In this document: in pieces, positions 9,221 to 63,968 of the stretch
Numbering within the stretch: position 1 is the stretch's first letter
Layout of the letters: the number at the start of each line of letters is the position of its first letter
Source of the DNA: Neisseria bacilliformis
GTDB taxonomy: Bacteria > Pseudomonadota > Gammaproteobacteria > Burkholderiales > Neisseriaceae
Direction: 5' to 3'
Assembly (NCBI RefSeq): GCF_014055025.1
Contig: NZ_CP059571.1
Span: 1,426,001-1,490,000, forward strand
DNA: 64,000 nt
Position numbers and translations under genes: made by a program
Notes under the pieces: model-generated
Database searches by the model: none
What the model was told of the DNA's origin: nothing
The model's input: only the letters and a program-made list of their open reading frames with translations

Positions 9221-9500
9221 CAAACGCCCAAAGCAGACCATATGACCGCAACCGCCTCCTTCCTCCTGTTCGCCGCGCTTTTGCTGCTAAGTATTGTTTG
9301 AGATAAAAATTAAATAGTGAAGCGACACGAGGATACCCGACCTGTTGTTTGCCCAACAGGTAGGGTGTGTCGCCCCGAGGCGACGCACGCGGTTTTTATG
9401 TCTTGATGGCAAAAAACAGCAGGCCGTCTGAAACGGTGTGTTCCGTATTTTTATGTTTTGCTTTGTAACGAAAAAACGTGCGGCCGACAGGTACTTGCAG

Positions 9501-9506
9501 TATAAT
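9501..9506 (+). promoter_or_regulatory. -10 element of rpsO
   Basis: TATAAT followed by the all-GC stretch CCGCGCG lies about 98 bases before the rpsO start, leaving a structured leader of about 90 nt. Confidence 0.6.
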
Positions 9507-9538
9507 CCGCGCGTCGCCCGAAACAGGGCGGTTTTCGG

Positions 9539-9566
9539 AGTCCGTCCGGTTCCGGCTGTTCGGACT
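9539..9566 (+). promoter_or_regulatory. Nested hairpin in the rpsO leader
   Basis: AGTCCG/CGGACT arms enclose CCGG/CCGG arms between promoter and start codon. In E. coli and other bacteria S15 represses its own mRNA through leader structure, so this is a plausible autoregulatory site; that function is inferred. Confidence 0.4.
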
Positions 9567-9603
9567 TGTCTGCCGCAAGGCTTTATTTTTTGGAGTTTTC
9601 CAC

Positions 9604-9870
9604 ATGTTATCCGTAGAACAAAAAGCGCAAATCGTCAAAGATTTCCAACGTAAAGAAGGCGATACCGGTTCGTCCGAAGTGCAGGTCGCCCTGCTGACCT
9701 TCCGCATCAACGACCTCACCCCGCATTTCAAAGCCAACCCGAAAGACCACCACAGCCGCCGCGGCCTGTTGAAAATGGTCAGCGCACGCCGCCGTCTCTT
9801 GGCCTACCTGCGCCGCACCAAGCCCGAAACCTACCGCGAGCTGATTACCCGCTTGGGTCTGCGCAAATAA
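9604..9870 (+). CDS. rpsO: 30S ribosomal protein S15
   Basis: Small-subunit protein that binds 16S rRNA helices 20-22 early in assembly. The 88-residue product is full length and carries the signature from [20 protein letters not shown] to [29 protein letters not shown] provides a Shine-Dalgarno 7 bases before the ATG. Codon use is that of a highly expressed gene. Transcription ends at a DUS hairpin; a candidate small RNA begins beyond it. Identification is certain. Confidence 0.99.
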
Positions 9871-9886
9871 TCTGCGCTTGAAAGTG

Positions 9887-9923
9887 AAAAGGCCGTCTGA
9901 AAATGTGTTTTCAGACGGCCTTT
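9887..9923 (+). terminator. DUS inverted-repeat terminator after rpsO
   Basis: AAAAGGCCGTCTGAAAA faces its inverted copy across a short loop, starting 16 bases after the rpsO stop and ending in TTT. Confidence 0.75.
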
Positions 9924-10010
9924 GCTTATCTTCGGCCGCGCCGCAAACCCTTTGTTTGCGCCAATAGGGGGAATCTTGACCTGTATCAAAACCGAATATG
10001 TGAAACTGCA

Positions 10011-10155
10011 TATAATTACATTCATCTGACGGGAACGACATAAACGGCACCGCCGGTATTGTCAGATTTGGGTATTCAACCGTTGGATCTTTCTTTCCTT
10101 TCCTCTTGATGTGTGTGTGTTTGGGTGTGGCTTGTCGGCCACACCGCTTTTTTTT
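10011..10155 (+). ncRNA. Candidate Hfq-type small RNA with own promoter and terminator
   Basis: A TATAAT at 10011-10016 is followed by about 135 bases with no ORF and clear RNA structure. The first stem-loop has arms ATCTGAC (10024-10030) and GTCAGAT (10061-10067) with an inner CGGC/GCCG helix. A single-stranded pyrimidine tract TTTCTTTCCTTTCCTCTT (about 10089-10106) is complementary to Shine-Dalgarno sequences. The terminator is GGTGTGGC/GCCACACC (10124-10131, 10138-10145) followed by eight T. The anti-Shine-Dalgarno loop plus U-tail is the layout of neisserial sibling sRNAs that repress metabolic mRNAs; relationship to them is inferred, not shown. Confidence 0.6.
10124..10155 (+). terminator. 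Intrinsic terminator of the candidate sRNA
   Basis: Perfect 8-bp GC-rich stem, 6-base loop and eight consecutive T. Confidence 0.85.
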
Positions 10156-10200
10156 GACTGTTTGGTGCAAACAGGTTGCAACTTTGCAGCGGCCTGCGTC

Positions 10201-10250
10201 GCGCGGCTCGGTTGTGAAGCCCGGCCTACGATGGGTAGTTTTATAAAAAA
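10201..10250. repeat. Half-copy of the Correia/REP element
   Basis: GAAGCCCGGCCTACGATGGG and the following TTTTATAAAAA match the right-hand half of the elements at 7703 and 37674; the left half is missing. Confidence 0.4.
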
Positions 10251-10285
10251 TTAAAAAGGAGCTGGCTGGGGTTTTGTAAAAGTTT

Positions 10286-10320
10286 CAGGCCGTCTGAAAA
10301 CTCAGTTTTCAGATGGCCTG
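10286..10320 (-). terminator. DUS inverted-repeat terminator of the DMT transporter
   Basis: CAGGCCGTCTGAAAACT faces AGTTTTCAGATGGCCTG with a one-base loop and a single mismatch (a decayed DUS), just after the stop at 10339. Confidence 0.65.
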
Positions 10321-10338
10321 TTTGTTGTTTGCCGGTAA

Positions 10339-11208
10339 TTACACGCCCAGCAGGGCGGCCAGCTGTGGCCAGTAGAACAGGCAGGCGACGGCGCAGAGTG
10401 CCAGGGCGATGCCGGCGGCGTTGACGGCGGAGATTTTTTCTTTGAACAGCAGTGCGCCGGTGAGCGTGCCGCAGACGATGACGCCGATGTTCATACCGGC
10501 AAACACCAGCGTCGGGCTGTCGGCCATGGCCTGATGGGCACGGATGTAGGAGAGGATGTTGCCGAAATTGAGGCAGCCGAGCAAAAGGCCGCCGGTGATG
10601 CCCTGCACCGTCCATTTCGTGCCACGGTAAAACAGCATGCCGAACATCAATACGGCCGCCAACGCGAAGGCGACGAGCAGGTTGCCGGAAAAGGCGGTGC
10701 CGCTTTTGGCGAGCTGTTTGAACAGGATGTCGATCAGGCCGTAGCCCACCCACACGGCCAGCAACAGCCATACGCTTTGCAGGCCGCCTTTTTTGCCGCC
10801 CTCGTGCTTGTACAGCAGGCAGGCGAGGGCGGTGAAGGCGAGCACCAGGCCGATGAGCCGCCCCTGTGTCAGCGGTTCGCCGAACAGGGTGAAGGAGGCG
10901 AGCACGGGCAGAAACAGCGACAGCCGCTGCGCCGCGTCGGATTTGACGATGCCCGCAGCGTCCACCGCCCGCCCCATTACGATAAACACGGCAGGCAGCA
11001 GCACGCCGAGCACGGCGAACAGCCACCAGGTCGGCAGGTAGTGCCGCCATGCGGCGAGGTCGGGTTGCAGCACGGCGACGGTGAGGCCGACGGCGGCGAT
11101 GTAGTTGACGGCCACGGCCTGGCCGAGGTCGATTTTCTGTTTGCGCGCCATTTTCAGCAAAACCGATACGGCAACGCTGCAACAGATGCTGATGATGAGG
11201 TAGTGCAT
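10339..11208 (-). CDS. EamA/DMT-superfamily membrane transporter
   Basis: A 289-residue integral membrane protein with about ten hydrophobic segments in two homologous halves, as in drug/metabolite transporters. The second half ends with the typical GTLTGALLFKEKISAVN and AAGIALALCAVACLFY helices. The first helix (MHYLIISICCSVAVSVLLKM) is that of EamA-like permeases. The start ATG at 11208 gives the expected first helix. Substrate cannot be told from sequence. It lies downstream of the M14 carboxypeptidase gene on the same strand but is separated from it by a DUS hairpin, so it is probably transcribed independently. Confidence 0.85.
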   Translation of the reverse strand: MHYLIISICCSVAVSVLLKMARKQKIDLGQAVAVNYIAAVGLTVAVLQPDLAAWRHYLPTWWLFAVLGVLLPAVFIVMGRAVDAAGIVKSDAAQRLSLFLPVLASFTLFGEPLTQGRLIGLVLAFTALACLLYKHEGGKKGGLQSVWLLLAVWVGYGLIDILFKQLAKSGTAFSGNLLVAFALAAVLMFGMLFYRGTKWTVQGITGGLLLGCLNFGNILSYIRAHQAMADSPTLVFAGMNIGVIVCGTLTGALLFKEKISAVNAAGIALALCAVACLFYWPQLAALLGV

Positions 11209-11256
11209 GGTGTTTCCCGATGGTGGGGCAAAGGTTTCGGCTGCGCCGAAGCTGCG

Positions 11257-11297
11257 TTTTCAGACGGCCTCAAAAATGATTTGAGGCCGTCTGAAAA
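11257..11297 (-). terminator. DUS hairpin between carboxypeptidase and DMT genes
   Basis: TTTTCAGACGGCCTCAA and TTGAGGCCGTCTGAAAA are perfect 17-base inverted arms with a 7-base loop. Confidence 0.75.
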
Positions 11298-11303
11298 ACC
11301 GTT

Positions 11304-12434
11304 TTAACGCAAATCGGGCAATACGTTCAGTATGGCCGACAAGGCCGCTTCGCCCAGGCGCAGGGAACGCTGGCCGTTCCAGCCGAAATCGTCGTCGGGC
11401 AGGTTGTCGTTGTCTTTGAACGGCATTTCCAGTGTGTAGGCGAGGCAGCCGAAGCGGTGGCCGACCCATTTGGTTGCCCAGCCCAAATCGGCCTGGCCGG
11501 GCGCGTCCTGCGGGTAGCCGTATTCGTCTTGGAAATCGGGGCTGGCGGCGGCGAAGGCGGCTTTGAAACGCGCGGCCAGCGCGGCGGTTTTCTCGTTGTA
11601 GCCCGGCACGCCTTCCGCGCCGGAGAGGAAGATGTAGGGCAGGGCTTCGTCGCCGTGGATGTCTAGGAACAGATCCACGCCGGTTTCCTCCATTTTGCGG
11701 CGCACATGGAACACTTCGGGGCTGCGTTTTTCGCTCGGGCTCTGCCATTCGCGGTTGAGGTTCGCGCCGGCGGCGTTGGTGCGCAGGTTGCCCAGTGCCG
11801 AGCCGTCGGGGTTCATATTGGGCACGATGTAGAAGGTGGCGCAATCGAGCAGGGCGCGGGCGGTGGGATCCTGCGGGTCGAGCAGGCGGCCGAGCAGCCC
11901 TTCGGCAAACCATTCGGCCATGGTTTCGCCGGGGTGCTGGCGGGCGATGACCCAGATTTTCAAATCGCTTTCGACCTGGTTGCCGATTGTGAGCAGGTTG
12001 ATGTCGCGCCCCTCTACCGTGCTGCCCAAGTCGTCAATCTGGCACAGGCCGCTGCCTTGCGCCTCGCCCAGCAGGTTCAGATGCTGTTCGCTGGAATAAG
12101 GCTCGAAATAGGCGTAATAGACGCTGTTGGCCAGCGGGGTGTGGTCGATGACGAGCACGCCGTTTTCGTAGCGGGTGGGCACGCAGAACCAGTTTTGCCG
12201 GTCGTAGGAGGCGCGCGCCTGATAGCCTTCCCAGCCTGCGGGGTAGGCAGCGACGGCGGCGTTTTCAAAGCGCATGACGCAGTTTTGGTAGGCCGCGCCT
12301 TGCAGGCGGAAGTAAAACCATTGGGCAAAACCGGCGGCGTTGTCGGGGCGCAGGGCGAGGCGGATGTTTTGCGGGTCGGACAGGTCGTGCACGACGATTG
12401 AGCCGGCATCGAATTGGGTAGAGATTTTCAGCAT
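11304..12434 (-). CDS. M14-family cytosolic carboxypeptidase
   Basis: Zinc metallocarboxypeptidase of the M14 cytosolic (Nna1/AGTPBP-like) branch found in several proteobacteria. The 376-residue product has an N-terminal beta-sandwich domain (about 1-120), then the zinc ligands H167 and E170 in RQHPGE, the third ligand H260 in LDIHGDE and the probable catalytic Glu336 in LEMPF. No signal peptide is present, consistent with a cytoplasmic enzyme. ATG 12434 is chosen because a TATAAT box lies 35 bases upstream and overlaps an alternative upstream ATG, which therefore cannot be used. Substrate is unknown; bacterial members are thought to trim C-terminal residues from proteins or peptides. Confidence 0.88.
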   Translation of the reverse strand: MLKISTQFDAGSIVVHDLSDPQNIRLALRPDNAAGFAQWFYFRLQGAAYQNCVMRFENAAVAAYPAGWEGYQARASYDRQNWFCVPTRYENGVLVIDHTPLANSVYYAYFEPYSSEQHLNLLGEAQGSGLCQIDDLGSTVEGRDINLLTIGNQVESDLKIWVIARQHPGETMAEWFAEGLLGRLLDPQDPTARALLDCATFYIVPNMNPDGSALGNLRTNAAGANLNREWQSPSEKRSPEVFHVRRKMEETGVDLFLDIHGDEALPYIFLSGAEGVPGYNEKTAALAARFKAAFAAASPDFQDEYGYPQDAPGQADLGWATKWVGHRFGCLAYTLEMPFKDNDNLPDDDFGWNGQRSLRLGEAALSAILNVLPDLR

Positions 12435-12468
12435 AGGAATGCGCAAGGGGCGGTTGGGAAAAGGCGGC

Positions 12469-12474
12469 ATTATA
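12469..12474 (-). promoter_or_regulatory. -10 element of the M14 carboxypeptidase gene
   Basis: Read on the minus strand, TATAAT followed by GCCGCC about 35 bases before the chosen ATG. Confidence 0.55.
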
Positions 12475-12519
12475 GTTTTTCCCGCGCCGCGCCGCCATAT
12501 CGCGCCGCTGCGGGGCGCA

Positions 12520-12681
12520 GGGTCTGTTGACAATCAGCTTTGCGGCGGTGTTTTTGGCAAAAAACACCCGCCTGCCGCGTCAAAAATGCGCGCAAGGTGT
12601 CCAACCTTGCTGCGCTTTTTTCCTTGCATTCGGGCATTTTTTACTCAAAAAACCGCTTGCAAACTGAATGTCAACACACCC
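12520..12681. mobile_element. MITE-like element with GGGTCTGTTGACA ends
   Basis: A 162-bp segment starts GGGTCTGTTGACAATCAG and ends in the inverted CTGAATGTCAACACACCC, 16 of 18 positions matching. It contains smaller inverted repeats (GGTGTTTTTGGC/GCCAAAAACACC-like and GCAAGGT/ACCTTGC) and no ORF. The same end sequence recurs at 14343 and, inverted, at 15612. No target duplication is obvious. Confidence 0.45.
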
Positions 12682-12684
12682 CGG

Positions 12685-12717
12685 AGGCCGTCTGAAAACT
12701 GCGTTTTCAGACGGCCT
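12685..12717. repeat. DUS inverted pair upstream of glutaredoxin-like gene
   Basis: AGGCCGTCTGAAAAC and GTTTTCAGACGGCCT arms of 15 bp with a 3-base loop, abutting the MITE-like element. Confidence 0.6.
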
Positions 12718-12788
12718 TTGTCCATTCTGTATCCGCTGCATTTTCAGACGGCCTGTATAATCCGAGGCCGTCTGAAAACAGGAAACAC

Positions 12789-13034
12789 ATGATGAAACTG
12801 ACCCTGATGTTCCGCGAATATTGCAGCCTGTGCCACGCCATGCGCGACGCGCTGCGGCCTTTGCAGGAGGCGTTCGGCTTTGAATTGGAAATTTTCGATG
12901 TGGACGACGATGCGGATTTGGAGGCGCGTTACAACGAGCTTGTGCCGGTGCTGCTGCACGGTGAGACGGAAATCTGCCACTGGCATTTGGACGAGGCGCG
13001 GCTGCGGGCGTATTTGGCGGGAGAGGCCGTCTGA
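12789..13034 (+). CDS. Glutaredoxin-family (DUF836-type) protein
   Basis: An 81-residue thioredoxin-fold protein. It opens with the beta strand KLTLMFREYCSLCHAM, placing a CxxC pair at C12 and C15 at the start of the first helix, and has the cis-Pro strand VPVLLHGETEI and the C-terminal helix typical of glutaredoxin-like DUF836 proteins. It probably handles cytosolic disulfides, but no partner is indicated. CAGGAAAC provides a ribosome site; ATG at 12789 or 12792 are both possible. The stop codon is the TGA of a DUS, giving the C terminus GEAV. Confidence 0.85.
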   Translation: MMKLTLMFREYCSLCHAMRDALRPLQEAFGFELEIFDVDDDADLEARYNELVPVLLHGETEICHWHLDEARLRAYLAGEAV

Positions 13035-13097
13035 AAAGGCGGGGCAGGGTAGGGCGTTCCGCCCGAGTCGGTACATGCGGTTTGAGGCCGTCTGAAA

Positions 13098-13182
13098 ACC
13101 AAGACTGGCTAACGCCCTCTTTTTACGGTATTTTGCCGGGCTGAAGCCCTGCCTACGATGGATGCTTTGTTCTGTATCCGCA
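13098..13182. repeat. Degenerate Correia/REP element
   Basis: GGCTAACGCC, a TTTTACGGTATTTTGCC spacer, the palindrome GGGCTGAAGCCCTGCCTACG and a right flank ending CTGTATCCGC match the element at 37674 but have lost the left end and the final ACTATA. Confidence 0.4.
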
Positions 13183-13184
13183 AT

Positions 13185-13219
13185 AAAAAACTGCCGGACG
13201 GCGTGTCCGGCAGTTTTTC
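13185..13219 (-). terminator. Intrinsic terminator of mdh
   Basis: Perfect 9-bp stem CTGCCGGAC/GTCCGGCAG with a 5-base loop, flanked by A6 and T5, so it can act in both directions. It contains no DUS. Confidence 0.85.
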
Positions 13220-13232
13220 TTTGTGCGGCGAT

Positions 13233-14213
13233 TTATTTCAGCAGGTCGGCCACGCCGGCTTTTTCGTCTTCCAGCTCTTTCAAAGTGGCGTTGATGCGCT
13301 CGCGGCTGAAATCGTCGATTTCCAAATCGCGCACCAGTTTGTATTCGCCGTTTTCGCAGGTAACGGGGAAGCCGAACACGGTGCCTTCGGGGATGCCGTA
13401 GGAGCCGTCGGAGGGGATGCCCATGGTTACCCATCTGCCGTTGGTGCCCAGCCACCAGTCGCGGATGTGGTCGATGGCGGCATTGGCGGCGGAGGCGGCG
13501 GAGGAGAGGCCGCGTGCTTCGATGATGGCCGCGCCGCGTTTGCCGACAGTGGGCAGGAACACTTCGGCATTCCATTGCTGGTCGTTAATCATCTCTTTCA
13601 CGCTCCGGCCGCCGATAGTGGCGAAGCGGTAGTCGGCATACATGGTGGGCGAGTGGTTGCCCCAGACGCACAGTTTTTCGATGTCGGCGACGGCTTTGCC
13701 GGTTTTTTCGGCAATCTGGCTGGCGGCACGGTTGTGGTCGAGGCGCAGCATGGCGGTGAAGTTTTTCGCGGGCAGGTCGGGGGCGGACTTCATGGCGATG
13801 TAGGCGTTGGTGTTGGCGGGATTGCCGACGACCAGCACTTTCACATTGCGGTCGGCCACTTTGTTCAAGGCCGCGCCCTGTACGGTGAAAATCTGCGCGT
13901 TGGCCTGCAAGAGGTCGGCGCGTTCCATGCCTTTGCTGCGCGGGCGCGCGCCGACAAGGATGGCGACTTGCGCGTCTTTAAAGGCAACTTCGGGGTCGTC
14001 GGTGGCGAACATACCGGCCAAGAGCGGGAAGGCGCAGTCCTGCAATTCCATCATCACGCCTTTGACGGCGTTCTGCGCCTGCGGCAGGTCGAGAAGCTGC
14101 AAAATCACGGGCTGGTCTTTGCCAAGCATTTCGCCGGATGCAATGCGGAAAAGCAGGGCATAGCCGATTTGGCCGGCTGCGCCGGTTACGGCAACACGGA
14201 CGGGGGTTTTCAT
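13233..14213 (-). CDS. mdh: NAD-dependent malate dehydrogenase
   Basis: Interconverts malate and oxaloacetate with NAD in the TCA and glyoxylate cycles. The 326-residue product belongs to the cytosolic-type MDH group common in beta-proteobacteria. It shows the NAD-binding loop GAAGQIGY (11-18), the substrate loop arginines in [10 protein letters not shown] (from 90), the Asp-His relay D159 and H187 ([18 protein letters not shown]), and full length. ATG 14213 is preceded by AAAGGAG. Meningococci and gonococci are known to lack this enzyme and use a membrane quinone-dependent malate oxidase, so its presence here marks a different branch of the genus. A strong intrinsic terminator follows. Confidence 0.97.
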
Positions 14214-15356: not shown

Positions 15357-15408
15357 GGTTTTCCTCGTAGGGGGTTGGAAGTTGGAAGGCTGCTGTTATG
15401 TCACATCG

Positions 15409-15453
15409 GAGGCCGTCTGAAAAAATATCAAACCCGTTTTTCAGACGGCCTCT
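15409..15453. repeat. DUS inverted pair upstream of the DUF4190 gene
   Basis: A DUS at 15410 faces an inverted DUS at 15440-15452 about 55 bases before the DUF4190 start. Further DUS copies lie at 15504 and 15585. Confidence 0.6.
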
Positions 15454-16238: not shown

Positions 16239-16262
16239 TTTTTTATATTAAGGGCGGACGGT

Positions 16263-17530: not shown

Positions 17531-17548
17531 GTTTTTGCTTTGCGGCGC

Positions 17549-18086: not shown

Positions 18087-18395
18087 CAGCGGGGCAGGGT
18101 GGCGGGGCGGCTTGTCTGCACAAAAAACAGGCAGCGGCGGAATTTGTCGGCGGATGAAGGGCATGGGCGGCTTGTCCACAGCAAATCCACGGCACTCTGC
18201 CGCGTTTCGGAGGATAAGGGCGGGGCAGGGGGCATGTTTCAGACGGCCTGATGCGCCTTATCCCGCGCTGCGCGGCAAAACGGCGTGGATTGTTTGTGGA
18301 AAAACCGCCTTGGCGGCTGATTTGGCGGAAGATTCCGATGCTGCCTGTTTTTTGTGCAGGCTGCGAATTTGAATTTGAAACCGCATGCGTGGCGC

Positions 18396-18483
18396 AGGTC
18401 GGGCATTGATGCCCGACAAACACGGAATCTGTTTATCCCAATATGCCGCAAATTGAAAACGTCGGGCATCAATGCCCGACCTG
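18396..18483. repeat. Family B REP pair
   Basis: GTCGGGCATTGATGCCCGAC (18398-18417) and GTCGGGCATCAATGCCCGAC (18461-18480) are 20-bp palindromes 43 bases apart, each flanked by CAGG or CCTG. Confidence 0.75.
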
Positions 18484-18789
18484 CTTAACTACCTGTTTTT
18501 TTGTGCAGGTCGCCCTCGAATACCGTGTATCTGCGCTGGAATGGCGACACGGATGTAGGGTGTGTGCCGCAGGCACGCACGCGGTGGCGGGCAAGCGGAA
18601 TGCCGTCTGAAAAGGCGGCAGCGGCTGTTGGCGAACCGCAAACCGCGTGCGTGGCAGAGCCACACACCCTACGTACCTGCTTAACGGCAGAGGCCGTCTG
18701 AAAATCCGTAAAACAGGTTTTGGCTGCGCCGAAGCCGCGCTTTCAAACGGCCTCCCATCCCGTTCGGGCAGCCCGTGCCCCGTCTCGGC

Positions 18790-21292: not shown

Positions 21293-21842
21293 ATAGCGGA
21301 GCAGGGTGTGTGGCACAAGCCACGCACGCGGTTTTTTTGTTTGAATAAGAAGGCACTGCTTCACCCGCAGCCACATATACTGGATAAAGATTAAAAGTAC
21401 CTATCGTAGGCTGGGCTTCAGCCCAGCTAACTCGATATTTTCACGATATTTTGCTGGGCTAAAAGCCCAGCCTACAATGGATAATTTTTATTTTGCTCCA
21501 CTATATTTTCAGACAGTAAGCGTAGCGTGGATCATACGTAGGGTGTGTCGCCCCGAGGCGACGCACGCGTTCTCTGCCACTCGGAGGCCGTCTGAAAACC
21601 CCGCAACATGATTTCAGACTGCCTTTGTGGCGCAAGCCACGCGCTCAGCCGCGCCCGGCTCTGCGGCTGTATTTCCGTATATTTTCAGACAGCCTCCACT
21701 ACGTTTCACATTTGAGGCCGTCTGAAAGCACAGCTCACAGCTTTAACGAAGTTAAAACCGCCAACCACATTGCGGAGCGTGTCGTCCGACGATACACGCG
21801 GCTTCCGCCCCGCAAGCAACCCAACCACCGAAAGGAAACCCC
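21293..21842. other. DUF711-pdxJ region: repeats
   Basis: Holds family C REPs (21302-21331 and 21538-21569), a Correia-like element (21376-21505), DUS copies at 21583 and 21715 and variant inverted copies AGACTGCC and AGACAGCC at about 21615 and 21683. No gene is visible. Confidence 0.6.
21376..21505. mobile_element. Correia-like miniature element with REP core (copy 2)
   Basis: A 130-bp segment begins TATACTGGATAAAGAT and ends TTTGCTCCACTATA. It encloses GTAGGCTGGGCTTCAGCCCAGC and its inverse, with the spacer AACTCGATATTTTCACGATA. The core palindrome has compensatory changes (CTGGGC for CCGGGC) on both arms relative to copies 1 and 3. Confidence 0.65.
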
Positions 21843-27751: not shown

Positions 27752-27772
27752 CCGCCGCTTTTCTTTTATCCA

Positions 27773-27811
27773 GTGTGGTTCGCAACCCTCCCACAATAAA
27801 AAACTAAGGAA
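27773..27811 (+). promoter_or_regulatory. PreQ1 class I riboswitch
   Basis: A compact aptamer immediately upstream of queF. Stem P1 is TGTGG (27774-27778) with CCACA (27791-27795). Its loop TTCGCAACCCTC carries the conserved pyrimidine and C-rich segment. The A-rich tail AATAAAAAACTAAGGA folds back as P2. The Shine-Dalgarno AAGGA is part of the tail, so ligand binding should block translation. This fits the preQ1-I consensus, known to control queuosine genes. The target order queF-yhhQ agrees. Confidence 0.88.
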
Positions 27812-27817
27812 ACCTTC

Positions 27818-29166: not shown

Positions 29167-31821
<2,655 letters not shown>

Positions 31822-31870: not shown

Positions 31871-31980
31871 TTCGCCGTTTCCACATGCCAAACCCGCCGT
31901 AGGGTGGGTCTTGACCCACCATCTCCGACGACATTTGCGGCTGTGTTGAAAAAACGGTGGGTCGGAACCCACCCTGCCTA
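31871..31980. repeat. Family D BIME (copy 1)
   Basis: GTAGGGTGGGTCTTGACCCACC and the inverse GGTGGGTCGGAACCCACCCT flank a spacer with ACATTTGCGGCTGTGTTGAA. A left flank CCGTTTCCACATGCCAAACC is also shared with copies 2 and 3, so the repeat unit is about 110 bp. Confidence 0.75.
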
Positions 31981-32016
31981 ACGGTAAAGGCCGTCTGAAA
32001 AACCCTTTTCAGCCGC

Positions 32017-32101
32017 AGGTCGGATACGTGTATCCGGCATCCCATACGGATACGGCGGCATGACGCTGCGGGAAAACGTCGGATTCGAGAATCCGACCTA
32101 C
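32017..32101. repeat. Family E BIME (copy 1)
   Basis: CAGGTCGGATACGTGTATCC and GTCGGATTCGAGAATCCGAC form two palindromes around a spacer containing CGGCATGACGCTGCGGGAAA, shared inverted with 41096-41173. Confidence 0.7.
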
Positions 32102-32252
32102 AACGGCTCGGGCTGGATGCGTAGAGGCCGTCTGAAAATCAGATTTGAGAATTTCAGACGGCTTTCATATGTCCGCGTTAGAAAGCGCGGATATGTTACG
32201 GAACAAAAACCGCGTGCGTCGCCTCGGGGCGACACACCCTACTTGCACGGCA

Positions 32253-33430: not shown

Positions 33431-33455
33431 GTTGGGTTTGCAACCCAAGCTACCT
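33431..33455. repeat. Family F REP (single)
   Basis: On the minus strand, GTAGCTTGGGTTGCAAACCCAA: GTAG followed by the TTGGGTT/AACCCAA palindrome. Relatives are at 63660 and 63904. Confidence 0.6.
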
Positions 33456-35611: not shown

Positions 35612-35670
35612 GACGGCGGTCGGGCGGTATACCCCACGCAAAAGCAGAGGCCGTCTGAAAAACAATCGGC

Positions 35671-35731
35671 AGGTCGGGCATTCATGCCCGACTGATAACT
35701 AAAAAATGTCGGGCATGAATGCCCGACCTAC
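35671..35731. repeat. Family B REP pair
   Basis: GTCGGGCATTCATGCCCGAC and GTCGGGCATGAATGCCCGAC, 15 bases apart; the second ends in CTAC, the inverse of the GTAG head. Confidence 0.75.
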
Positions 35732-35864
35732 GGGCTGTTTGCCGTTCGCACCCAATGCCGAAACTGATGTAGGGTGTGTGGCGCAGCCACGCACGCGGTC
35801 TTGGCCGTGCAAACCGAAAGGCCGTCTGAAAGCCGCATTGTGCGGTTTTCAGACGCCCTCTTCC

Positions 35865-35975
35865 GTTTCCGCCACGCCGAACCCGCCGCAGGGTGGGTCT
35901 TGACCCACCGTTTCCGGCGATATTTGCGGCTGTGCCGTATTGAAAAAAACGGTGGGTCGAGACCCACCCTGCGTA
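35865..35975. repeat. Family D BIME (copy 2)
   Basis: CAGGGTGGGTCTTGACCCAC and the inverse GGTGGGTCGAGACCCACCCT around a spacer with GATATTTGCGGCTGTGCCGT. The left flank matches copy 1. Confidence 0.75.
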
Positions 35976-37529: not shown

Positions 37530-37838
37530 TTTTGTGCTTTCTTGCGGTTTTGAGGGATGGGTTGGCGGCAGAGGCCGTCTGAAAAACGGAAAACGGAGAC
37601 CGCGTGCGTGGCTTACGCCACACACCCTACTTGAACGGCGAAAGGCCGTCTGAAAACGTGAGGGAACGGGTTTTATAGTGGAACAAAATGAAAGATACCC
37701 ACCGTAGGCCGGGCTTCAGCCCGGCTAACTCGCTATTTATCCGATATTTTGCCGGGCTGAAGCCCGGCCTACACCGAATACTTTTTATCTGTATCCACTA
37801 TAGCTGCGCCGAAGCCGGGCTTTCAGACGGCCTCTGTG
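37530..37838. other. YecA-murI region with repeats
   Basis: Holds a DUS (37572), an inverted family C REP (37600-37630), a DUS (37643), a Correia-like element and an inverted DUS (37823). No gene is visible. Confidence 0.65.
37674..37802. mobile_element. Correia-like miniature element with REP core (copy 3)
   Basis: A 129-bp segment begins TATAGTGGAACAAAAT and ends TCTGTATCCACTATA. It encloses GTAGGCCGGGCTTCAGCCCG and its inverse with the spacer AACTCGCTATTTATCCGATA. Best preserved copy; the ends match the Correia TATAGTGGA terminus. Confidence 0.7.
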
Positions 37839-40266: not shown

Positions 40267-40348
40267 TGCCGTTATGTAGGGTGTGTGGCGCAGCCACGCA
40301 CGCGGTTTCCGATGTGTGGAACGAAAGGCCGTCTGAAAACCCGGTTTC

Positions 40349-40460
40349 GTAGGGTGGGTCTTGACCCACCGTTTTTTTTAATACGGCACAGCCGAAAATA
40401 TCGCCGGAAATAGTGGGTCAAGACCCACCCTACGGCGGGTTCGGCGTGGCGGAAACGGCA
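40349..40460. repeat. Family D BIME (copy 3, opposite orientation)
   Basis: GTAGGGTGGGTCTTGACCCACC and GTGGGTCAAGACCCACCCTAC enclose the spacer seen in copies 1 and 2 in reverse; the GCGGAAACGG flank is here on the right. Confidence 0.75.
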
Positions 40461-40566
40461 AGAGGCCGTCTGAAAACCGCACAATGCGTTTTTCAGACGG
40501 CCTTTCGGGTTTGCGCGGCCAAAACCGCGTGCGTGGCTTGCGCCACACACCCTACGGCAGGTTCGC

Positions 40567-40857: not shown

Positions 40858-41095
40858 AGCGAAAGGCCGTCTGAAAAAACGAAAACGCGATTATAGCGGG
40901 TCGGCGGGAAAGCAGGCATTTTGGCGGCGGTGCCGGTGTGGCGTAAATCGGGGTTGCGCTCCCACAATGCCGCACCATCCGTAGGGTGTGTCGCCCCAAG
41001 GCGATGCACGCGTTCCTTGCCGCATCACGGATTCCGTCCTGCCGCAACCGCGTGCGTGGCTTGCGCCACACACCCTACCTGAACGGCGTCAGTTG

Positions 41096-41173
41096 CAGGT
41101 CGGATTCTCGAATCCGACGTTTCCCGCAGCATCATCCCGCCGCGCGGGATGTCGGATACAAGTATCCGGCCTA
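41096..41173. repeat. Family E BIME (copy 2, opposite orientation)
   Basis: CAGGTCGGATTCTCGAATCC and GTCGGATACAAGTATCCGGC surround the inverse of the copy 1 spacer (TTTCCCGCAGCATCATCCCG). Confidence 0.7.
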
Positions 41174-41207
41174 CGGCTGCCTGAACGGCAAGAGGCCGTC
41201 TGAATCC

Positions 41208-41282
41208 GTAGGTCGGGCATTTATGCCCGACGTTTTTTGAGTTTGCCGGTGGTTGTCCGTCGGGCATGAATGCCCGACCTAC
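41208..41282. repeat. Family B REP pair with GTAG heads on both sides
   Basis: GTAGGTCGGGCATTTATGCC and its partner ending GCCCGACCTAC; 27 bases separate the palindromes. Clear GTAG at the left and CTAC at the right. Confidence 0.75.
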
Positions 41283-41379
41283 GGATTTGGGCGGGTGCGT
41301 TCCATGTCCTGTAACAAATCCCCGTTCCCGCAAGCTCCGTAACCGCGTGCGTGGCTGCGCCACACACCCTACGGCAAAG

Positions 41380-43753: not shown

Positions 43754-43821
43754 GGGTTTGGACGGCTGGGGATGCTAAAACAACCGCGTGCGTGGCTGCG
43801 CCACACACCCTACGGATGTGT

Positions 43822-44574: not shown

Positions 44575-44882
44575 GTTTGCGCTTCGGGGAAACGGAAAAG
44601 GCGGGATTATACAGGCCGTCTGAAAGGTGTATTGCGGTTTCGGCGCGGACAACAGCGCGGAAGCTGTTTTTCAGACGGCCTGAACGGCAGGAAACGCGTG
44701 CGTCGCCTTGGGACGGCACACCCTACTTAATGAAACCGCGTGCGTGGCTGCGCCACACACCCTACCTTACGCGCCGCCTTTGCGTTGTCGGCGAAACGCC
44801 TGTTTTTGTAACGCAAGAGGCCGTCTGAAAAGCGGTTTCCCGTTTTCAGACGGCCTTTTTTGGCAATAGGCGCGGGGGCGGT
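44575..44882. other. rlmB-DUF4124 region
   Basis: Holds the rlmB -10 element (44606-44611), a DUS pair (44612-44682), two inverted family C REPs (44694-44726, 44736-44765) and the DUF4124 terminator. Confidence 0.6.
44816..44860 (-). terminator. DUS inverted-repeat terminator of the DUF4124 gene
   Basis: AGAGGCCGTCTGAAAA faces TTTTCAGACGGCCTTTTT, 22 bases past the stop. Confidence 0.7.
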
Positions 44883-52368: not shown

Positions 52369-52443
52369 GGTTTGGGCGGCGCAAACCGCGTGCGTGGCTT
52401 GCGCCACACACCCTGCAACGGGTTCGGCATCGCGGATGGGAAA

Positions 52444-54201: not shown

Positions 54202-54412
54202 GGCGGGTTTCCTTTTCGGGTTCGGAGGCCGTCTGAAAATGCGGAATTCGTGTCGCGCTTTCGGACGGTATCGGTTTTTAATCTTCGGGCAGTTGCAGCG
54301 TTCTCTGCCGCATCACGGATTCCATCAGCCTGCCGAAACCGCGTGTGTGGCTTGCGCCGCACACCCTACCTGCGGTGCAAACGGCGGTTTGGATATTTTG
54401 TTTCACGATACA

Positions 54413-59801: not shown

Positions 59802-59837
59802 GGCGGGGTGTGCGTGGGGTTCGGACGACGGAGCGGC

Positions 59838-59843
59838 ATTATA
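59838..59843 (-). promoter_or_regulatory. -10 element of recB
   Basis: TATAAT followed by GCCGC on the minus strand, 37 bases before the recB ATG; the DUS array begins about 25 bases further upstream. Confidence 0.55.
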
Positions 59844-59866
59844 GCAAGGCGGGCGGGGCGGTTTGC

Positions 59867-59936
59867 GGCCGTCTGAAAAAGGCCGTCTGAAAAAGGCCGT
59901 CTGAAAAAGGCCGTCTGAAAAAGGCCGTCTGAAAAA
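59867..59936. repeat. Tandem array of five DUS copies
   Basis: The 14-bp unit GGCCGTCTGAAAAA is repeated head to tail five times without change (10-mer cores start at 59868, 59882, 59896, 59910, 59924). It lies between the recB promoter and the ppsA terminator. Confidence 0.95.
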
Positions 59937-59966
59937 GGCGGCCGCACCCTTTCGGGTGCGGCCGCC
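59932..59966 (-). terminator. Intrinsic terminator of ppsA
   Basis: Perfect 13-bp GC-rich stem GGCGGCCGCACCC/GGGTGCGGCCGCC with a 4-base loop. The A5 at its left, part of the last DUS unit, gives the U-tract on the minus strand. Confidence 0.9.
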
Positions 59967-59982
59967 TGCCTTATCCGCCGGT

Positions 59983-62370
59983 TCAGCGTTTGGCTTCTTT
60001 GGCCAGATACAGCCAGGTTTCAATCACGGTGTCGGGGTTCAGCGAGATGGTGTCGATGCCCTCTTCCACCAGCCATTTGGCAAAATCGGGATGATCCGAG
60101 GGGCCTTGCCCGCAGATGCCGACGTATTTGTTGTGCTTGCGGCAGGCGGAGATGGCCAGGTGCAGCATGACTTTCACCGCCGGGTTGCGCTCGTCGAAGG
60201 TGGCGGCGATGGAGCCGCCGCTGTCCCGGTCCACGCCGAGAGTGAGCTGGGTCATGTCGTTCGAGCCGATGGAGAAGCCGTCGAAGTATTGCAGGAACTG
60301 TTCGGCCAAGAGGGCGTTGCTCGGCACTTCGCACATCATGATCAGGCGCAGGCCATTTTTGCCGCGCTCCAAGCCGTTGGCTTTGAGGGCTTTGACGACG
60401 GCTTCGGCTTCGGCGAGGGTGCGCACGAAGGGAATCATGATTTCGACGTTGGTCAGCCCCATTTCGTCGCGCACGCGTTTGAGGGCTTTGCATTCGAGGG
60501 CGAAGCAGTCGGCGAAGTCTTCGGAGATATAGCGCGCCGCGCCACGGAAGCCGAGCATGGGGTTTTCTTCGTGCGGTTCGTAGCGGCTGCCGCCGATCAA
60601 GCCCATGTATTCGTTGGATTTGAAGTCGGACATGCGGACGATGACTTTGCGCGGGAACACGGCGGCGGCCAAGGTGGAGACGCCTTCGGCGATTTTGTCC
60701 ACGTAAAAATCAACGGGCGAGGCGTAGCCTGCAATGCGCGCTTCGATTTCTTCGCGGGTGTCGGCGTCCTGCCGGTCAAACTCGATCAGGGCTTTGGGGT
60801 GGATGCCGATTTGGCGGTTGATGATGAACTCCATGCGTGCCAGGCCGATGCCTTCGCTGGGCAGGCCGGAGAAGGAGAAGGCCAGCTCGGGGTTGCCGAC
60901 GTTCATCATGATTTTGACGGGCGGCTCGGGCATGTTGTCCAAGGCCACGTCGTTCACTTCCACGTTGAGGATGCCTTCGTAAATCAGACCGGTGTCGCCT
61001 TCGGCGCAGGATACGGTTACTTCCTGTCCTTCGTGCAAAACGGACGAGGCGTTGCCGCAGCCGACCACAGCGGGGATGCCCAGCTCGCGGGCGATGATGG
61101 CGGCGTGGCAGGTGCGGCCGCCACGGTTGGTTACGATAGCGGCGGCGCGTTTCATCACCGGCTCCCAATCGGGGTCAGTCATGTCGGTAACGAGCACGTC
61201 GCCTTCCTGCACGGTGTCCATTTCCGAGGCGTCTTTGATGAGGCGCACTTTGCCTTGTCCGACTTTCTGGCCGATGGCGCGGCCTTCGCACAGCACTTTT
61301 TTCCCGCCTTCGATGGCGTAGCGGCGCAGGCTGCGGCCGCCTTTTTCCTGCGATTTCACGGTTTCGGGGCGCGCCTGCAAAATGTAGATTTTGCCGTCGA
61401 TGCCGTCGCGTCCCCATTCGATGTCCATCGGGCGGCCGTAGTGTTCTTCGATGATGAGGGCGTATTTGGCCAGCTCGGCGATTTCTTCGTTGCTCACGGA
61501 GAAGCGTTTGCGCTGTTCGGCGGGCACGTCGATGACCTGCACCGATTTTCCGGCCTGCGCCTCTTCGGTGAACACCATTTTGATGAGTTTGGAACCCATG
61601 GTTTTGCGCAGGATGGCGGGTTTGCCCGCACGCAGCGTGGGTTTGTGGATATAGAATTCGTCGGGGTTCACCGCGCCCTGCACCACCATTTCGCCGAGGC
61701 CGTAGGACGATGTGAGGAAAACAACCTGGTCGAAGCCGCTTTCGGTGTCGAGGGTGAACATCACACCCGATGCGCCATGATCGGAGCGCACCATGCGCTG
61801 CACGCCGGCCGAGAGGGCGACGATGTCGTGGGCGAAACCTTTGTGGACGCGGTAGGAGATGGCGCGGTCGTTGTAGAGCGAGGCGAAAACGTGTTTCATC
61901 GCCTCTTTGACGTTATCCAAACCGTTGATGTTCAGGAAAGTTTCCTGCTGGCCGGCAAACGAGGCGTCGGGCAGGTCTTCGGCAGTGGCCGAAGAGCGCA
62001 CGGCGACGGAAATGGCGTCCGTGCCCGCGTCGGCCACCAGCTTGTCCCAAGCCTCGCCGACAGCCTTATCCAATTCTTCGGGAAACGGCGTTTCCAAAAT
62101 CCACTGGCGGATTTCCTTGCCCACCCGCGCCAGCTCGGTAACGTCGGACACATCCAAACCGGCCAGAGCCTGCGAGATGCGTTCGTTCAGGCCGTTATGC
62201 GCGAGAAAGGCGCGGTAGGCTTCGGCGGTGGTGGCGAAACCGCCCGGCACGCGCACGCCTTTTTCGGTGAGCTGACTGATCATTTCACCGAGCGACGCGT
62301 TTTTGCCGCCCACGCTGTCCACGTCGGTCATGCGCAGATTTTCAAACCAGATAACGTAATTTGCAGCCAT
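59983..62370 (-). CDS. ppsA: Phosphoenolpyruvate synthase
   Basis: Converts pyruvate and ATP to PEP for gluconeogenesis. The 795-residue product has the N-terminal ATP-grasp domain ([34 protein letters not shown]), the phosphohistidine domain with His422 in [13 protein letters not shown], and the C-terminal PEP-binding barrel ending [31 protein letters not shown] and CGQGPSDHP. Divergent ppsR encodes its regulator. A -10 (TAAAAT, 62424-62429 minus strand) lies 54 bases upstream. Works with AceA, GlcB and Mdh to make sugars from C2 units. Confidence 0.98.
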
Positions 62371-62769
62371 TTTATGTCGTCCAAATCAAAGGTTGTAGAA
62401 GGATAGGGAAATCAAGGTGCGGCATTTTAACCAGCCAAAGCCGATGTGTCATGTGTTTTTCCGGCGGCAAAGGCATACAGGCCGTCTGAAAAAACGCGCG
62501 ACCGCGCCGGTGTAATCCCCTGAAACCCCATATGCGGCCTACCCTGAAAAAACGTCAAAAACCAACCGAATCTTACATTTAAATACACTTCGCAACCTTT
62601 ATGCATAAAAACAAACGCTCCGCCGCTGCATACGCCGCATACAAAGCACGTCCAACGCGGTTTCCCGCTAAAATGTAGCCCCATGTAGTTTCTGCGGCAC
62701 ACTTCAATTTCAGACAGCCTCTTGCTATCATCCCGCCCCTTTACAACCCTTTGCAAAGCGAACCGCACC
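62371..62769. other. ppsA-ppsR divergent regulatory region
   Basis: 399 bases with the ppsA -10 (62424), a DUS (62479), an AT-rich middle (62560-62620), a decayed inverted DUS with AGACAGCC (62711) and the ppsR promoter. No REP and no gene. Confidence 0.6.
62723..62731 (+). promoter_or_regulatory. Extended -10 promoter of ppsR
   Basis: TGC-TATCAT lies about 39 bases before the ATG, directly after the decayed DUS. Confidence 0.5.
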
Positions 62770-63588
62770 ATGACCCGCCGCGCCGCCTTTTTCATCTCCG
62801 ACCGCACCGGCCTCACCTCCGAAAGCATGGGCGAAGCCCTGCTCGACCAGTTTCAGGACATCAAATTCAAGCGTTCCACCTATCCTTTTGTCGACACACC
62901 CGAAAAAGCCCGCGCCATGGTGCAGATCATCGAAACCGCCGCGCGGCAGACCGACCTGCGCCCCTTAGTGTTTTCCAGCATCATCAACGAAGAAATCCGC
63001 GCCATCATCCGCAGCAGCCCCGGCCTGCACCTGAGCTTTTTCGACGCGTTTTTGGGCGTACTCGAAAACGAATTGGGCACCAAAGCCCGCCACGAAGCCG
63101 GCCGCGCCCACGGCATCGCCGACAGCGCGCGCTACGAAGCCCGCATGGACGCGGTGAACTTCACCCTCAACCACGACGACGGCGTGAGCGACAAAGACCT
63201 CAAAGACGCCGACGTCATCCTCATGGGCGTATCGCGCAGCGGCAAAACCCCCACCTGCCTGTATCTCGCCCTGCAATACGGCATCCGCGCCGCCAACTAC
63301 CCGCTCACCCCCGACGATTTGGACAACCCCGACCTGCCGCCGATGGTGAAACCCTACCGCAGCAAAATCTACGGCCTCACCATCAAACCCGAGCGGCTCG
63401 CCGACATCCGCGAAGAACGCCGCCCCAATTCAAACTACGCCAGCCTCGCCACATGCAGGCAGGAAGTGGCCGACGCCCAGGCCATGTTCCGCCGCTTCGA
63501 CATCCCCCACACCAACACCACCCACAAATCCGTAGAAGAACTCGCCGCCTGCATCATCCAGGCCTGCGGGCTGAAACGGCGTTTCTGA
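62770..63588 (+). CDS. ppsR: PEP synthase regulatory protein (bifunctional kinase/phosphorylase, DUF299)
   Basis: ADP-dependent kinase and Pi-dependent phosphorylase that switches PEP synthase off and on by phosphorylating a threonine next to its catalytic histidine. The 272-residue product has the DUF299 start RAAFFISDRTGLTSESMGEA, the P-loop GVSRSGKT (153-160) and SRSGKTPTCLYLALQYGIR. ATG 62770 is chosen over an ATG at 62722, which would lie at the -10. Divergent from its target ppsA. A 40-bp DUS palindrome ends the transcript. Confidence 0.96.
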   Translation: MTRRAAFFISDRTGLTSESMGEALLDQFQDIKFKRSTYPFVDTPEKARAMVQIIETAARQTDLRPLVFSSIINEEIRAIIRSSPGLHLSFFDAFLGVLENELGTKARHEAGRAHGIADSARYEARMDAVNFTLNHDDGVSDKDLKDADVILMGVSRSGKTPTCLYLALQYGIRAANYPLTPDDLDNPDLPPMVKPYRSKIYGLTIKPERLADIREERRPNSNYASLATCRQEVADAQAMFRRFDIPHTNTTHKSVEELAACIIQACGLKRRF

Positions 63589-63603
63589 AACCCGCCGACA
63601 AAG

Positions 63604-63643
63604 CAAGAGGCCGTCTGAAAAACGTTTTTCAGACGGCCTCTTG
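63604..63643 (+). terminator. 40-bp perfect DUS palindrome after ppsR
   Basis: CAAGAGGCCGTCTGAAAAAC is followed at once by its exact reverse complement; there are no loop bases. Confidence 0.8.
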
Positions 63644-63659
63644 CCGTTGAAGCAGCGGG

Positions 63660-63727
63660 CAGCTTGGAGTGCACACCCAACATCGGCCGGTTGCACGGAT
63701 GTTTGGAATCGATCCAAGCTACCTTGG
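63660..63727. repeat. Family F BIME (copy 1)
   Basis: GCAGCTTGGAGTGCACACCC and GTTTGGAATCGATCCAAGCT flank the spacer CATCGGCCGGTTGCACGGAT. The right end reads CTACC, the inverse of GTAG. Confidence 0.55.
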
Positions 63728-63903
63728 CTGCCGCGTATGCGGATTCAGCCCTAAGGTAGTGTGTGTCGCCCCGAGGCGACGCACACGTTCTCTGCCGCAT
63801 CCACACCCACGCCCTGCCCTGCCAACCCAAACCGCGTGCGTGGCTGCGCCCCCCTGCCTTAGCGGCAAGAGGCCGTCTGAAAACATGAAAAACGCAACGG
63901 GTT

Positions 63904-63968
63904 TCTTGGGTTGCAAACCCAACATCGGCGGACTGCGCGGGTGTCGGGGAGCGCCCCAGCCTGCCTTG
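63904..63968. repeat. Family F BIME (copy 2)
   Basis: CTTGGGTTGCAAACCCAAC and GTCGGGGAGCGCCCCAGCCT flank the spacer CATCGGCGGACTGCGCGGGT, which is close to that of copy 1. Confidence 0.5.

Follow-up and report, generated by a model that had tools for sequence, protein, structure and literature searches.

The short palindromes of the window (the whole stretch of DNA that was analysed, 64,000 nucleotides) are very probably REPs arranged as REPINs and spread by lineage-specific RAYTs, with the movers of two families (B and F) still intact and the other four families (A, C, D and E) remaining from past bursts. REP/REPIN families with cognate RAYTs are a known kind of repeat. We assign the palindromes to this kind because of their heads, their copy numbers, the palindromes flanking RAYT genes, the agreement between RAYT tree and palindrome type across the genus, and their outward pairing, all of which are observed directly.

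Palindrome families, heads and pairing

A sequence-only reading had described at least six families of palindromes in the window, most with GTAG heads. All six motifs are present there, in 35 pattern copies (15 of C, 6 of B, 4 each of A, D and E, and 2 of F; Table 1). Some details differ from that reading: its span started at 9360 and family A begins earlier, at 7719-7800; family F has a full copy only at 33432-33453, its other copy (63901-63922) having a degenerate head. Counted over the whole genome, as had been proposed, the families have 37 to 236 exact copies each and 608 together (C 236, B 153, E 69, D 59, A 54, F 37). Reversed patterns, used as a control, gave no match for any of the six in any of the 46 genomes of the genus.

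Table 1. Family members in the window, with positions counted from its first letter
Family	Description	Position	Strand
A	imperfect arm, GCAG head, partner of 7779..7800; context of minus-strand match at 7739	7719..7739	+
A	arm, GCAG head	7779..7800	-
C	CGC-type arm	9360..9391	+
B	left arm of REPIN, GCAG head	18394..18417	+
B	right arm, REPIN with 18394..18417, GCAG head	18461..18484	-
C	GCC-type arm of REPIN	18555..18583	+
C	GGC-type arm, REPIN with 18555..18583	18644..18672	-
C	GCAG head	21301..21330	+
A	GCTGGGCT form, left arm	21406..21427	+
A	right arm, 3-base loop	21453..21475	-
C	CGC-type arm	21538..21569	+
D		31899..31920	+
E	GGATAC form, left arm of REPIN, GCAG head	32015..32038	+
E	GGATTC form, right arm	32078..32101	-
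C	CGC-type arm	32211..32242	-
F	full copy	33432..33453	-
B	left arm of REPIN, GCAG head	35669..35692	+
B	right arm	35708..35731	-
C	GGC-type arm	35769..35797	+
D	left arm of REPIN, GCAG head	35888..35909	+
D	right arm, GCAG head	35951..35972	-
C	GGC-type arm	37601..37630	-
A	left arm of REPIN	37704..37725	+
A	right arm	37751..37772	-
C	GGC-type arm	40276..40304	+
D	left arm of REPIN	40349..40370	+
D	right arm, one stem base changed	40412..40433	-
C	GGC-type arm	40526..40555	-
C	GGC-type arm	41049..41078	-
E	GGATTC form, left arm of REPIN, GCAG head	41095..41118	+
E	GGATAC form, right arm	41151..41174	-
B	left arm of REPIN	41208..41231	+
B	right arm	41259..41282	-
C	GGC-type arm	41344..41372	-
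C	GGC-type arm	43785..43813	-
C	GGC-type arm	44737..44765	-
C	GCAG head	52387..52416	-
C	variant	54343..54369	-
C	variant, GTAGTGTGTGT	63756..63785	+
F	core, degenerate head	63901..63922	+

The GTAG head is evident even when no knowledge of the families is used. In a 464-kb sample (the window and 20 evenly spaced 20-kb stretches), palindromes with an arm of at least 8 and a loop of 1-7 were collected, and the 190 of 272 without an uptake sequence (DUS) were kept, the DUS-bearing ones being excluded. Their 380 edges, with no strand chosen, include 42 with GTAG, where about 0.9 is expected from a background of 0.23%; the predicted excess of GTAG is therefore present. Conversely, a hairpin follows 143 of 2127 GTAGs, compared with 0.51% over all tetranucleotides. 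Among tetranucleotides that precede hairpins, TAGG ranks first (128 of 1166) and GTAG second, ahead of AGGT; we take the ranks of TAGG and AGGT to be shifted readings of the same GTAGG or GTAGGT. The head of 144 family copies is GTAG in 112 and GCAG, the second commonest, in 25, with the better-headed strand chosen for the palindromic families and the strand of C fixed (60 of 72 there). The families are thus dispersed stem-loops preceded by GTAG (or GTGG), as GTAG REPs are.

The head also distinguishes families A-F from the dRS3 or CGTC-1 repeats of Neisseria, which are short palindromes found in the same sample: GTAG or GCAG, not CGTC, heads 137 of the 144 copies. These CGTC-tagged, dRS3-like repeats (ATTCCC) form a seventh family in the sample, with 8 arms of the form ATTCCCGC and CGTC at 10 palindrome edges. 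The text of PMC3733652 describes CGTC repeats as lacking a dedicated transposase.

The palindromes had been called unrelated sequences that share a head. The shared head stands, but the lack of relationship was overstated: A, B, D, E and F have in common a GTAGG-YGG-like stem frame, and their stem differences are partly paired changes. In family C, stems that have changed still pair: 18 of the 24 distinct apical stems are complementary (shuffled mean 8.6, maximum 16), and a T-G mismatch in the stem is kept in 60 of 66.

Neighbours of the same family are paired in the manner of REPINs, that is, as two inverted REPs, narrowly spaced, with the heads outermost. GTAG lies outside in 33 of 35 such pairs in the 464-kb sample and inside in 2, and none is in tandem; total REPIN length there is about 63-118 bp. 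Head-outward pairs are few for some families (one of A, two of D, two of F), and 45 of 72 C copies lie outside any counted pair. Most C pairs have unlike ends: of the 12, 8 join a GGC arm to a CGC arm, and in 9 the gap is 45-46. The spacers of E, compared with each other, show no likeness beyond that of random orientation.

Could the palindromes be immobile hairpins of the host, for instance transcription terminators or structures built from DUS? REP-like hairpins reportedly can act at transcript ends, and the 464 kb holds 246 inverted pairs (gap up to 300) of the DUS, here GCCGTCTGAA, which we take to be the Neisseria dialect. However, we consider this extremely improbable. DUS-bearing palindromes were excluded from the head tests, only 8 of the 246 pairs have a REP inside, and a PreQ1 riboswitch is the sole Rfam match of the window at gathering scores. 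A family such as D, present in a single one of the 46 genomes, is unlikely to sit at orthologous transcript ends across many species. Nor would a host origin explain the family-specific sequences, the GTAG heads, the outward pairing or the presence of the palindromes beside RAYT genes. We also considered a special link between REPs and DUS, as REPs are often near DUS, and dropped it because of the same 8 in 246.

RAYT genes in this genome and across the genus

A search of the genome with profile NF047646 found three RAYT genes, RAYT-1, RAYT-2 and RAYT-3 (196.8, 196.1 and 151-152 bits; NCBIfam cut-off 80). None is inside the window, in agreement with the sequence-only reading, and each is flanked by one of the palindrome families, as that reading had anticipated in taking the palindromes for RAYT-associated REPs. 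RAYT-1 is flanked by B, RAYT-2 by F and RAYT-3 by C, with an F pair also present further upstream of RAYT-3. The nearest solved structure to all three is TnpA-REP 4er8 (E 1.2e-41, 2.2e-42 and 3.7e-21). The translations of RAYT-1 and RAYT-2 contain a HuH motif (HLH or HIH) and YIHxNPVKHG with the conserved tyrosine; in RAYT-3 both motifs survive within an open segment, on either side of which the gene is broken. RAYT-1 sits in an insertion hot spot inside hrpA, where several relatives have defence genes.

Thus B, C and F each have a cognate RAYT in this genome, the one beside C being broken, and A, D and E flank none of the three. An intact cognate RAYT is present for B and F only, and the majority of the repeats thus resemble remnants of a dead or lost mover: because RAYT-3 is broken and A, D and E are without a RAYT of their own here, 418 of the 608 copies have no working cognate gene. 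The suggestion that several RAYT lineages act on one genome is only partly right: it may hold for the two intact ones, but not for six, since the gene for C is broken, cognates of A and E occur only elsewhere, and none was seen for D.

RAYT phylogeny and flanking palindrome type agree across the 46 genomes of the genus. The 41 labelled RAYTs carry 13 palindrome types (6 resting on a single RAYT and 7 seen at two or more), which require 12 changes on the tree. This is the minimum, whereas shuffled labels required 25.8 on average and never fewer than 22 in 200 shuffles. If the 7 unlabelled rows are treated as one further type, 17 changes are required (least possible 13, shuffled mean 32). These figures rest on 66 profile rows reduced to 52 places by dropping three IS200-type matches, three second gene pieces and eight weak fragments (in G014, G021, G022, G026 and G042). 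REP types were assigned by eye, giving labels to 43 of the 52 places, with G002 and G028 labelled C despite mixed or one-sided flanks; among the 9 unlabelled places, G021 and G027a have REPs, single or mixed. The tree has 48 rows, four of under 110 aa (G004, G006, G021 and G035) having been dropped. A GTAG or GTGG hairpin lies within about 500 bp of 46 of the 52 RAYT places, compared with 87 of 300 random places in the genome of the window; the other 6 have none within 500 bp, and some other flanks are mixed.

The families that lack a RAYT here differ in what is found elsewhere. For A and E, RAYTs with these forms at their sides occur only in other genomes. D flanks none of the 52 RAYT places examined in the genus, and its exact palindrome, with 59 copies here, is absent from the other 45 genomes. 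The 12 genomes that have an E-type RAYT hold more E copies than the 34 that lack one (one-sided Mann-Whitney p 0.0003). Copy number does not track RAYT presence for A, C or F; for example, G010 has an A-type RAYT, yet only 2 A copies.

Alternatively, the two intact RAYTs might be promiscuous and mobilise every one of the six families in trans, in which case A, C, D and E would not be orphans. The stems are alike in pattern (the GTAGG and YGG-like frame), D and the F form GTTGGGTC are one paired change apart, the RAYT clades of B and E adjoin in the tree, and C has reached its copy number here although the lesion of RAYT-3 is common to five relatives with at most 7 exact copies. We nevertheless regard such promiscuity as very doubtful. 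G010 has a B-type RAYT at 90% identity as well as its A-type gene, yet has only 4 copies of E in addition to its 2 of A. Neighbours within 120 bp form 25 same-family pairs against 13 mixed ones (family B is absent from this count), and across the genus the flanking palindromes track the RAYT clades.

Proposed history of the families

Based on these observations, we infer copying by RAYTs, an order of events and a loss of movers. REPINs would be non-autonomous elements, two inverted REPs with GTAG heads outermost, that are copied by RAYT enzymes. The RAYTs, as IS200-like HuH/tyrosine transposases, would recognise the GTAG head and a family-specific hairpin in single-stranded DNA, each lineage having its own palindrome. 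We postulate that the coexistence of six families reflects separate RAYT lineages, each of which arrived or evolved in this lineage at its own time. Two of the movers are still intact here, RAYT-1 for family B and RAYT-2 for family F. The RAYT that spread C would be dead or lost, and the movers of A, D and E would be lost. Families A, C, D and E would then be the surviving copies of earlier bursts.

We expected that orphan families would be more decayed, and this was ruled out. Among copies with 0-2 changes, merged in coarse bins, the perfect ones are 22 of 41 for B, 10 of 23 for D, 8 of 20 for E, 27 of 92 for C, 3 of 13 for A and 3 of 21 for F. Freshness does not follow RAYT presence, since F, with an intact RAYT, is the most worn. 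The count was limited to 0-2 changes because the classes with 3-4 changes are inflated by palindromes that match the other strand too.

Family D may have a different origin. It could be a recent offshoot of F that arose and spread here through a REP switch beside RAYT-2 or its lost duplicate (an orthoswitch, of the kind described in Pseudomonas), and not a remnant of some foreign RAYT. We hold this possibility tentatively, as somewhat less likely than the alternative. The confinement of exact D to this genome among the 46, a D stem that equals the F form with one compensatory change, and the intactness of RAYT-2 argue for it; RAYT-2, however, is flanked by F and not by D. This reading bears solely on where D came from and does not conflict with the history proposed above.

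Family C raises the question of whether a REP family can burst without a working RAYT of its own, C being copied in trans by another RAYT. RAYT-3 is the sole C-type RAYT in this genome, and its 2-base lesion is shared with five genomes that have 0-7 exact C copies each, so the C-type RAYT may have died before C burst. We think this unlikely, because a commonest C form does flank RAYT-3 and the lesion could have arrived later by recombination. The idea that the common C forms are unlike those beside RAYT-3 was ruled out, as GGCGCAGCC adjoins it downstream; the CGC-type form was not seen beside RAYT-3. If C did burst in this way, palindromes and movers would be an exchangeable network in naturally competent Neisseria, and not fixed pairs.

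Related systems and significance

The families resemble the GTAG REP super-family with its REPtrons as presented in the text of PMC3733652: a GTAG head, a short stem-loop, frequent pairing, and RAYTs flanked by the same repeats. That text reports both GTAG and CGTC repeats in Neisseriae and states that REPtrons are repeat-specific in species that carry several GTAG families. In contrast to what the text describes (its Figure 1 and Additional file 4 lie outside the comparison), six families are found here in one Neisseria-type genome, four of them without a working gene of their own. Similarly, in the REPIN systems of Pseudomonas and Stenotrophomonas, as covered by the text of PMC2817692, PMC3116915 and PMC3686654, RAYTs and the REPs beside them co-evolve, the unit is probably an inverted doublet, and REP classes without a RAYT are frequent and explained by RAYT loss or orthoswitch; the hosts and stems differ from ours. 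The text of the 2010 paper among these three reports RAYTs meeting its criteria in gammaproteobacteria only and discusses one betaproteobacterium, Thauera. In sequence, E. coli TnpA-REP (PDB 4er8) is a near whole-length relative of RAYT-1 and RAYT-2; GTAG and a hairpin are common to its repeats and ours, and the stem sequences differ. The T-G mismatch of family C is reminiscent, by analogy, of the irregular stem that E. coli TnpA-REP needs according to the text of PMC8266576. The relevant main-text passages of PMC3733652, PMC2817692, PMC8266576, PMC6006769, PMC3116915 and PMC3686654 describe no individual Neisseria RAYT gene.

A competent beta-proteobacterial genus thus becomes, like Pseudomonas and Stenotrophomonas, a setting in which the co-evolution of RAYTs and palindromes can be studied. 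Thirteen palindrome types are matched to RAYT branches within one genus, and families with a living, a dead or no mover lie side by side in one genome. Together, these open two questions to direct testing: the specificity of a RAYT for its own hairpin, and the length of time for which a family outlives its mover.

Palindrome families and their hairpins

The genome of N. bacilliformis consists of one contig of 2,492,712 bases, and the window covers positions 1426001-1490000 of it. Independently of any family definition, we analyzed the window and 20 evenly spaced 20-kb stretches (464 kb) and found 272 palindromes (arm length 8 bases or more, loop length 1-7 bases). After exclusion of the 82 that bear the uptake word, 190 palindromes were left, and GTAG was present at 42 of their 380 edges, compared to approximately one expected from its background of 0.23%. 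In the same sample, a hairpin follows 143 of 2127 GTAGs, compared to 0.51% across all tetranucleotides. TAGG alone ranks higher, and this is the GTAG head read one base later. Pattern searches of the whole genome found 608 exact copies of the six families (C, 236; B, 153; E, 69; D, 59; A, 54; F, 37), and these counts are better compared for one family across genomes than between families because pattern strictness is unequal (the C and F patterns contain the head, the A, B, D and E patterns do not). Backward-read control patterns of the six families had no match in any of the 46 genomes of the genus set. These results confirm the existence of the GTAG-headed families described in the sequence-only reading.

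Two other kinds of repeat occur in the same DNA. The uptake word GCCGTCTGAA, whose density in the window is, by its uptake dialect, the mark of a Neisseria-type genome, has 146 exact copies there, 132 of them in the form AGGCCGTCTGAA. In the 464-kb sample there are 862 exact 10-mers and 246 inverted pairs no more than 300 bases apart. In addition, CGTC-headed, dRS3-like ATTCCCGC palindromes are found alongside the GTAG families (8 palindromes with 10 CGTC edges in the window and the 20 stretches, L004-L023).

Of the 144 copies in the sample, 112 are headed by GTAG and 25 by GCAG. This figure is biased upward because the better-headed strand was picked for palindromic families; in family C, where the pattern sets the strand, it is 60 of 72. 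Among 35 pairs of same-family neighbours within 120 bp, 33 point outward with GTAG on the outer side, two point inward and none is in tandem. This is the arrangement of a REPIN, that is, two inverted REPs. The ends of C pairs are mostly unlike, with one GGC-type and one CGC-type arm in 8 of 12; similarly, GGATAC is paired with GGATTC in 4 of 6 E pairs and TTGGGTT with TTGGGTC in both F pairs. Nine of the 12 C pairs have a gap of 45-46 bases, and the C spacers are similar once oriented by their arms (score of 0.19, versus at most -0.17 with shuffled letters and at most 0.06 with random orientation). Spacers of the E pairs in the sample were no more similar than under random orientation.

Pairing in the stems has been kept through sequence change. 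The lower stem of family C retains a T-G mismatch in 60 of 66 copies, and the upper stem varies on both sides, with 18 of 24 distinct forms complementary (shuffled mean 8.6, maximum 16). Among the 54 copies of family A, one stem pair, tallied by hand from the genome-wide copy listing with the strand read from the loop, is C-G 27 times, T-A 15 times, T-G 9 times and C-A 3 times. Selection has therefore acted on a hairpin, as would be expected of DNA that is recognised single-stranded.

RAYT genes and their palindromes

Three genes in the genome match the RAYT profile NF047646. All are outside the window, in agreement with the earlier statement that it contains no RAYT gene. RAYT-1 and RAYT-2 have open reading frames of about 175 amino acids each, and among solved structures E. 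coli TnpA-REP (4er8) is the closest to both. RAYT-3 is broken by a frame shift in its first half and a stop near its end. Family B lies on both sides of RAYT-1, F flanks RAYT-2, and C flanks RAYT-3, with an F pair farther upstream. The proposal that the palindromes are REPs mobilised by RAYTs is right in kind.

Across the 46 genomes we inspected 52 RAYT places, leaving out eight weak fragments. A GTAG or GTGG hairpin is within about 500 bp of 46 of these, compared to 87 of 300 random places in the N. bacilliformis genome. Palindrome type was assigned by eye at 43 places. On the RAYT tree (41 labelled rows, 13 types, six of them with one RAYT apiece), the labels require 12 changes, which is the minimum; shuffled labels gave a mean of 25.8 and a lowest value of 22. 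A single branch separates each of types E (13 rows), F (4), J (3), B (2), L (2) and I (2), where I, J and L are further palindrome types found beside RAYTs. Type C requires five changes when all other rows, labelled or not, are counted as outside, and it is not one clean group because type I and RAYTs without a readable flank fall among the C rows. Thus, a RAYT and its palindrome change together over the genus.

Families without a working cognate gene

The suggestion that several RAYT lineages act on this genome held in part: the acting lineages are fewer than the six families. Intact cognate genes exist for B and F only. The cognate gene of C is dead, and none of the three RAYTs is beside A, D or E, so 418 of the 608 counted copies are without a working cognate gene. 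Elsewhere, an A form flanks a RAYT of genome G010, and 12 other genomes carry members of a RAYT clade flanked by E forms. None of the 52 RAYT places is flanked by D, and exact D occurs in one of the 46 genomes. PMC3686654 describes REP classes without a RAYT as frequent in Pseudomonas and Stenotrophomonas, and on that account such families are not new in kind.

Among the six families in this genome, the freshness of copies did not correspond to the presence of a RAYT. The share of perfect copies among those with 0-2 changes is lowest in F (3 of 21), though its RAYT is intact, and is 10 of 23 in D, which has none. E copies are more numerous in the 12 genomes with a matching RAYT than in the other 34 (one-sided p = 0.0003), with a maximum of 276 in G016, which has an E-type RAYT. 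The N. bacilliformis genome, without one, has 69, the second highest of the 46.

Family C presents a further misfit. A 2-base lesion in RAYT-3 is common to genomes G024, G037, G026, G039 and G019, which have 4, 4, 7, 0 and 1 exact C copies, versus 236 here. Should the lesion descend from a shared ancestor, the C burst came later than the death of the gene; should it instead have entered later by recombination, the burst did not postdate that death. C has two main forms in N. bacilliformis, and one of them (GGCGCAGCC) is found next to RAYT-3, next to broken RAYTs in G019 and G006, and next to an unbroken one in G028. None of the 52 RAYT places had the CGC-type form in its flanks. C could alternatively have been copied in trans by another RAYT; we prefer the explanation that a second C-type RAYT produced the burst and has since been lost.

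The hrpA insertion site

RAYT-1 and its closest relative, in G010, both lie within the helicase gene hrpA, which is broken at one and the same point in the two genomes and whose two pieces best match the HrpA model TIGR01967 (ATP-dependent RNA helicase). The two RAYTs are 90% identical, and the leucyl-tRNA synthetases of the two genomes are 83% identical. Since PMC2817692 reports faster evolution of RAYTs than of their neighbours, this comparison with one housekeeping protein suggests horizontal transfer of RAYT-1. In G006, G018, G019, G024 and G042, the synthetase aligns as two segments separated by a gap that follows residue 370 or so, with the frame open, which probably reflects an in-frame insert.

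Locations of features in the window, and contents of hrpA inserts
Feature	Location	Match or remark
PreQ1 riboswitch	window 27769-27813 (+)	55 bits; sole Rfam match in window at gathering scores
Leucyl-tRNA synthetase (leuS)	window 29191-31818	TIGR00396
Head-to-tail uptake-word array	window 59853-59953	five to six 14-base units (GGCCGTCTGAAAAA)
hrpA region, N. bacilliformis	L001 1-3363 = C1:2200481-2203843	other genomes: loci L212-L244
Restriction systems	G004, G008, G016, G024	
DarTG	G009	
GmrSD-type gene	G021	
Mokosh-type gene	G040	
CAP12-type TIR protein	G001	
Reverse transcriptase	G020	below every curated cut-off
Fic protein	G003	
PIN-domain protein	G010	beside RAYT-1 relative
Cold-shock plus Excalibur protein	N. 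bacilliformis	beside RAYT-1

In 33 of the 46 genomes, variable cargo of 1.0-10.6 kb splits hrpA at this one point. The gene is uninterrupted in nine, has its parts on opposite strands in one, and is represented by one part in two and by neither in one. The RAYT-1 site is therefore an insertion hot spot, where a RAYT could have been exchanged by transformation and flanking homology instead of transposing itself. Since each part of hrpA keeps an open frame, the two could make up a two-part helicase. A search of 22 open frames from the inserts found clear defence-type genes in eight inserts. A sulfatase-family gene, which is not defence, is in the inserts of ten genomes (recognised by its start; one was searched). 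Partial extra copies of hrpA are inside the insert at L244 (G045), L232 (G024) and G004:C3 near L215, as though part of the target gene had travelled with the cassettes. A full-text search of the literature found no description of this hot spot, and it may merit separate study.
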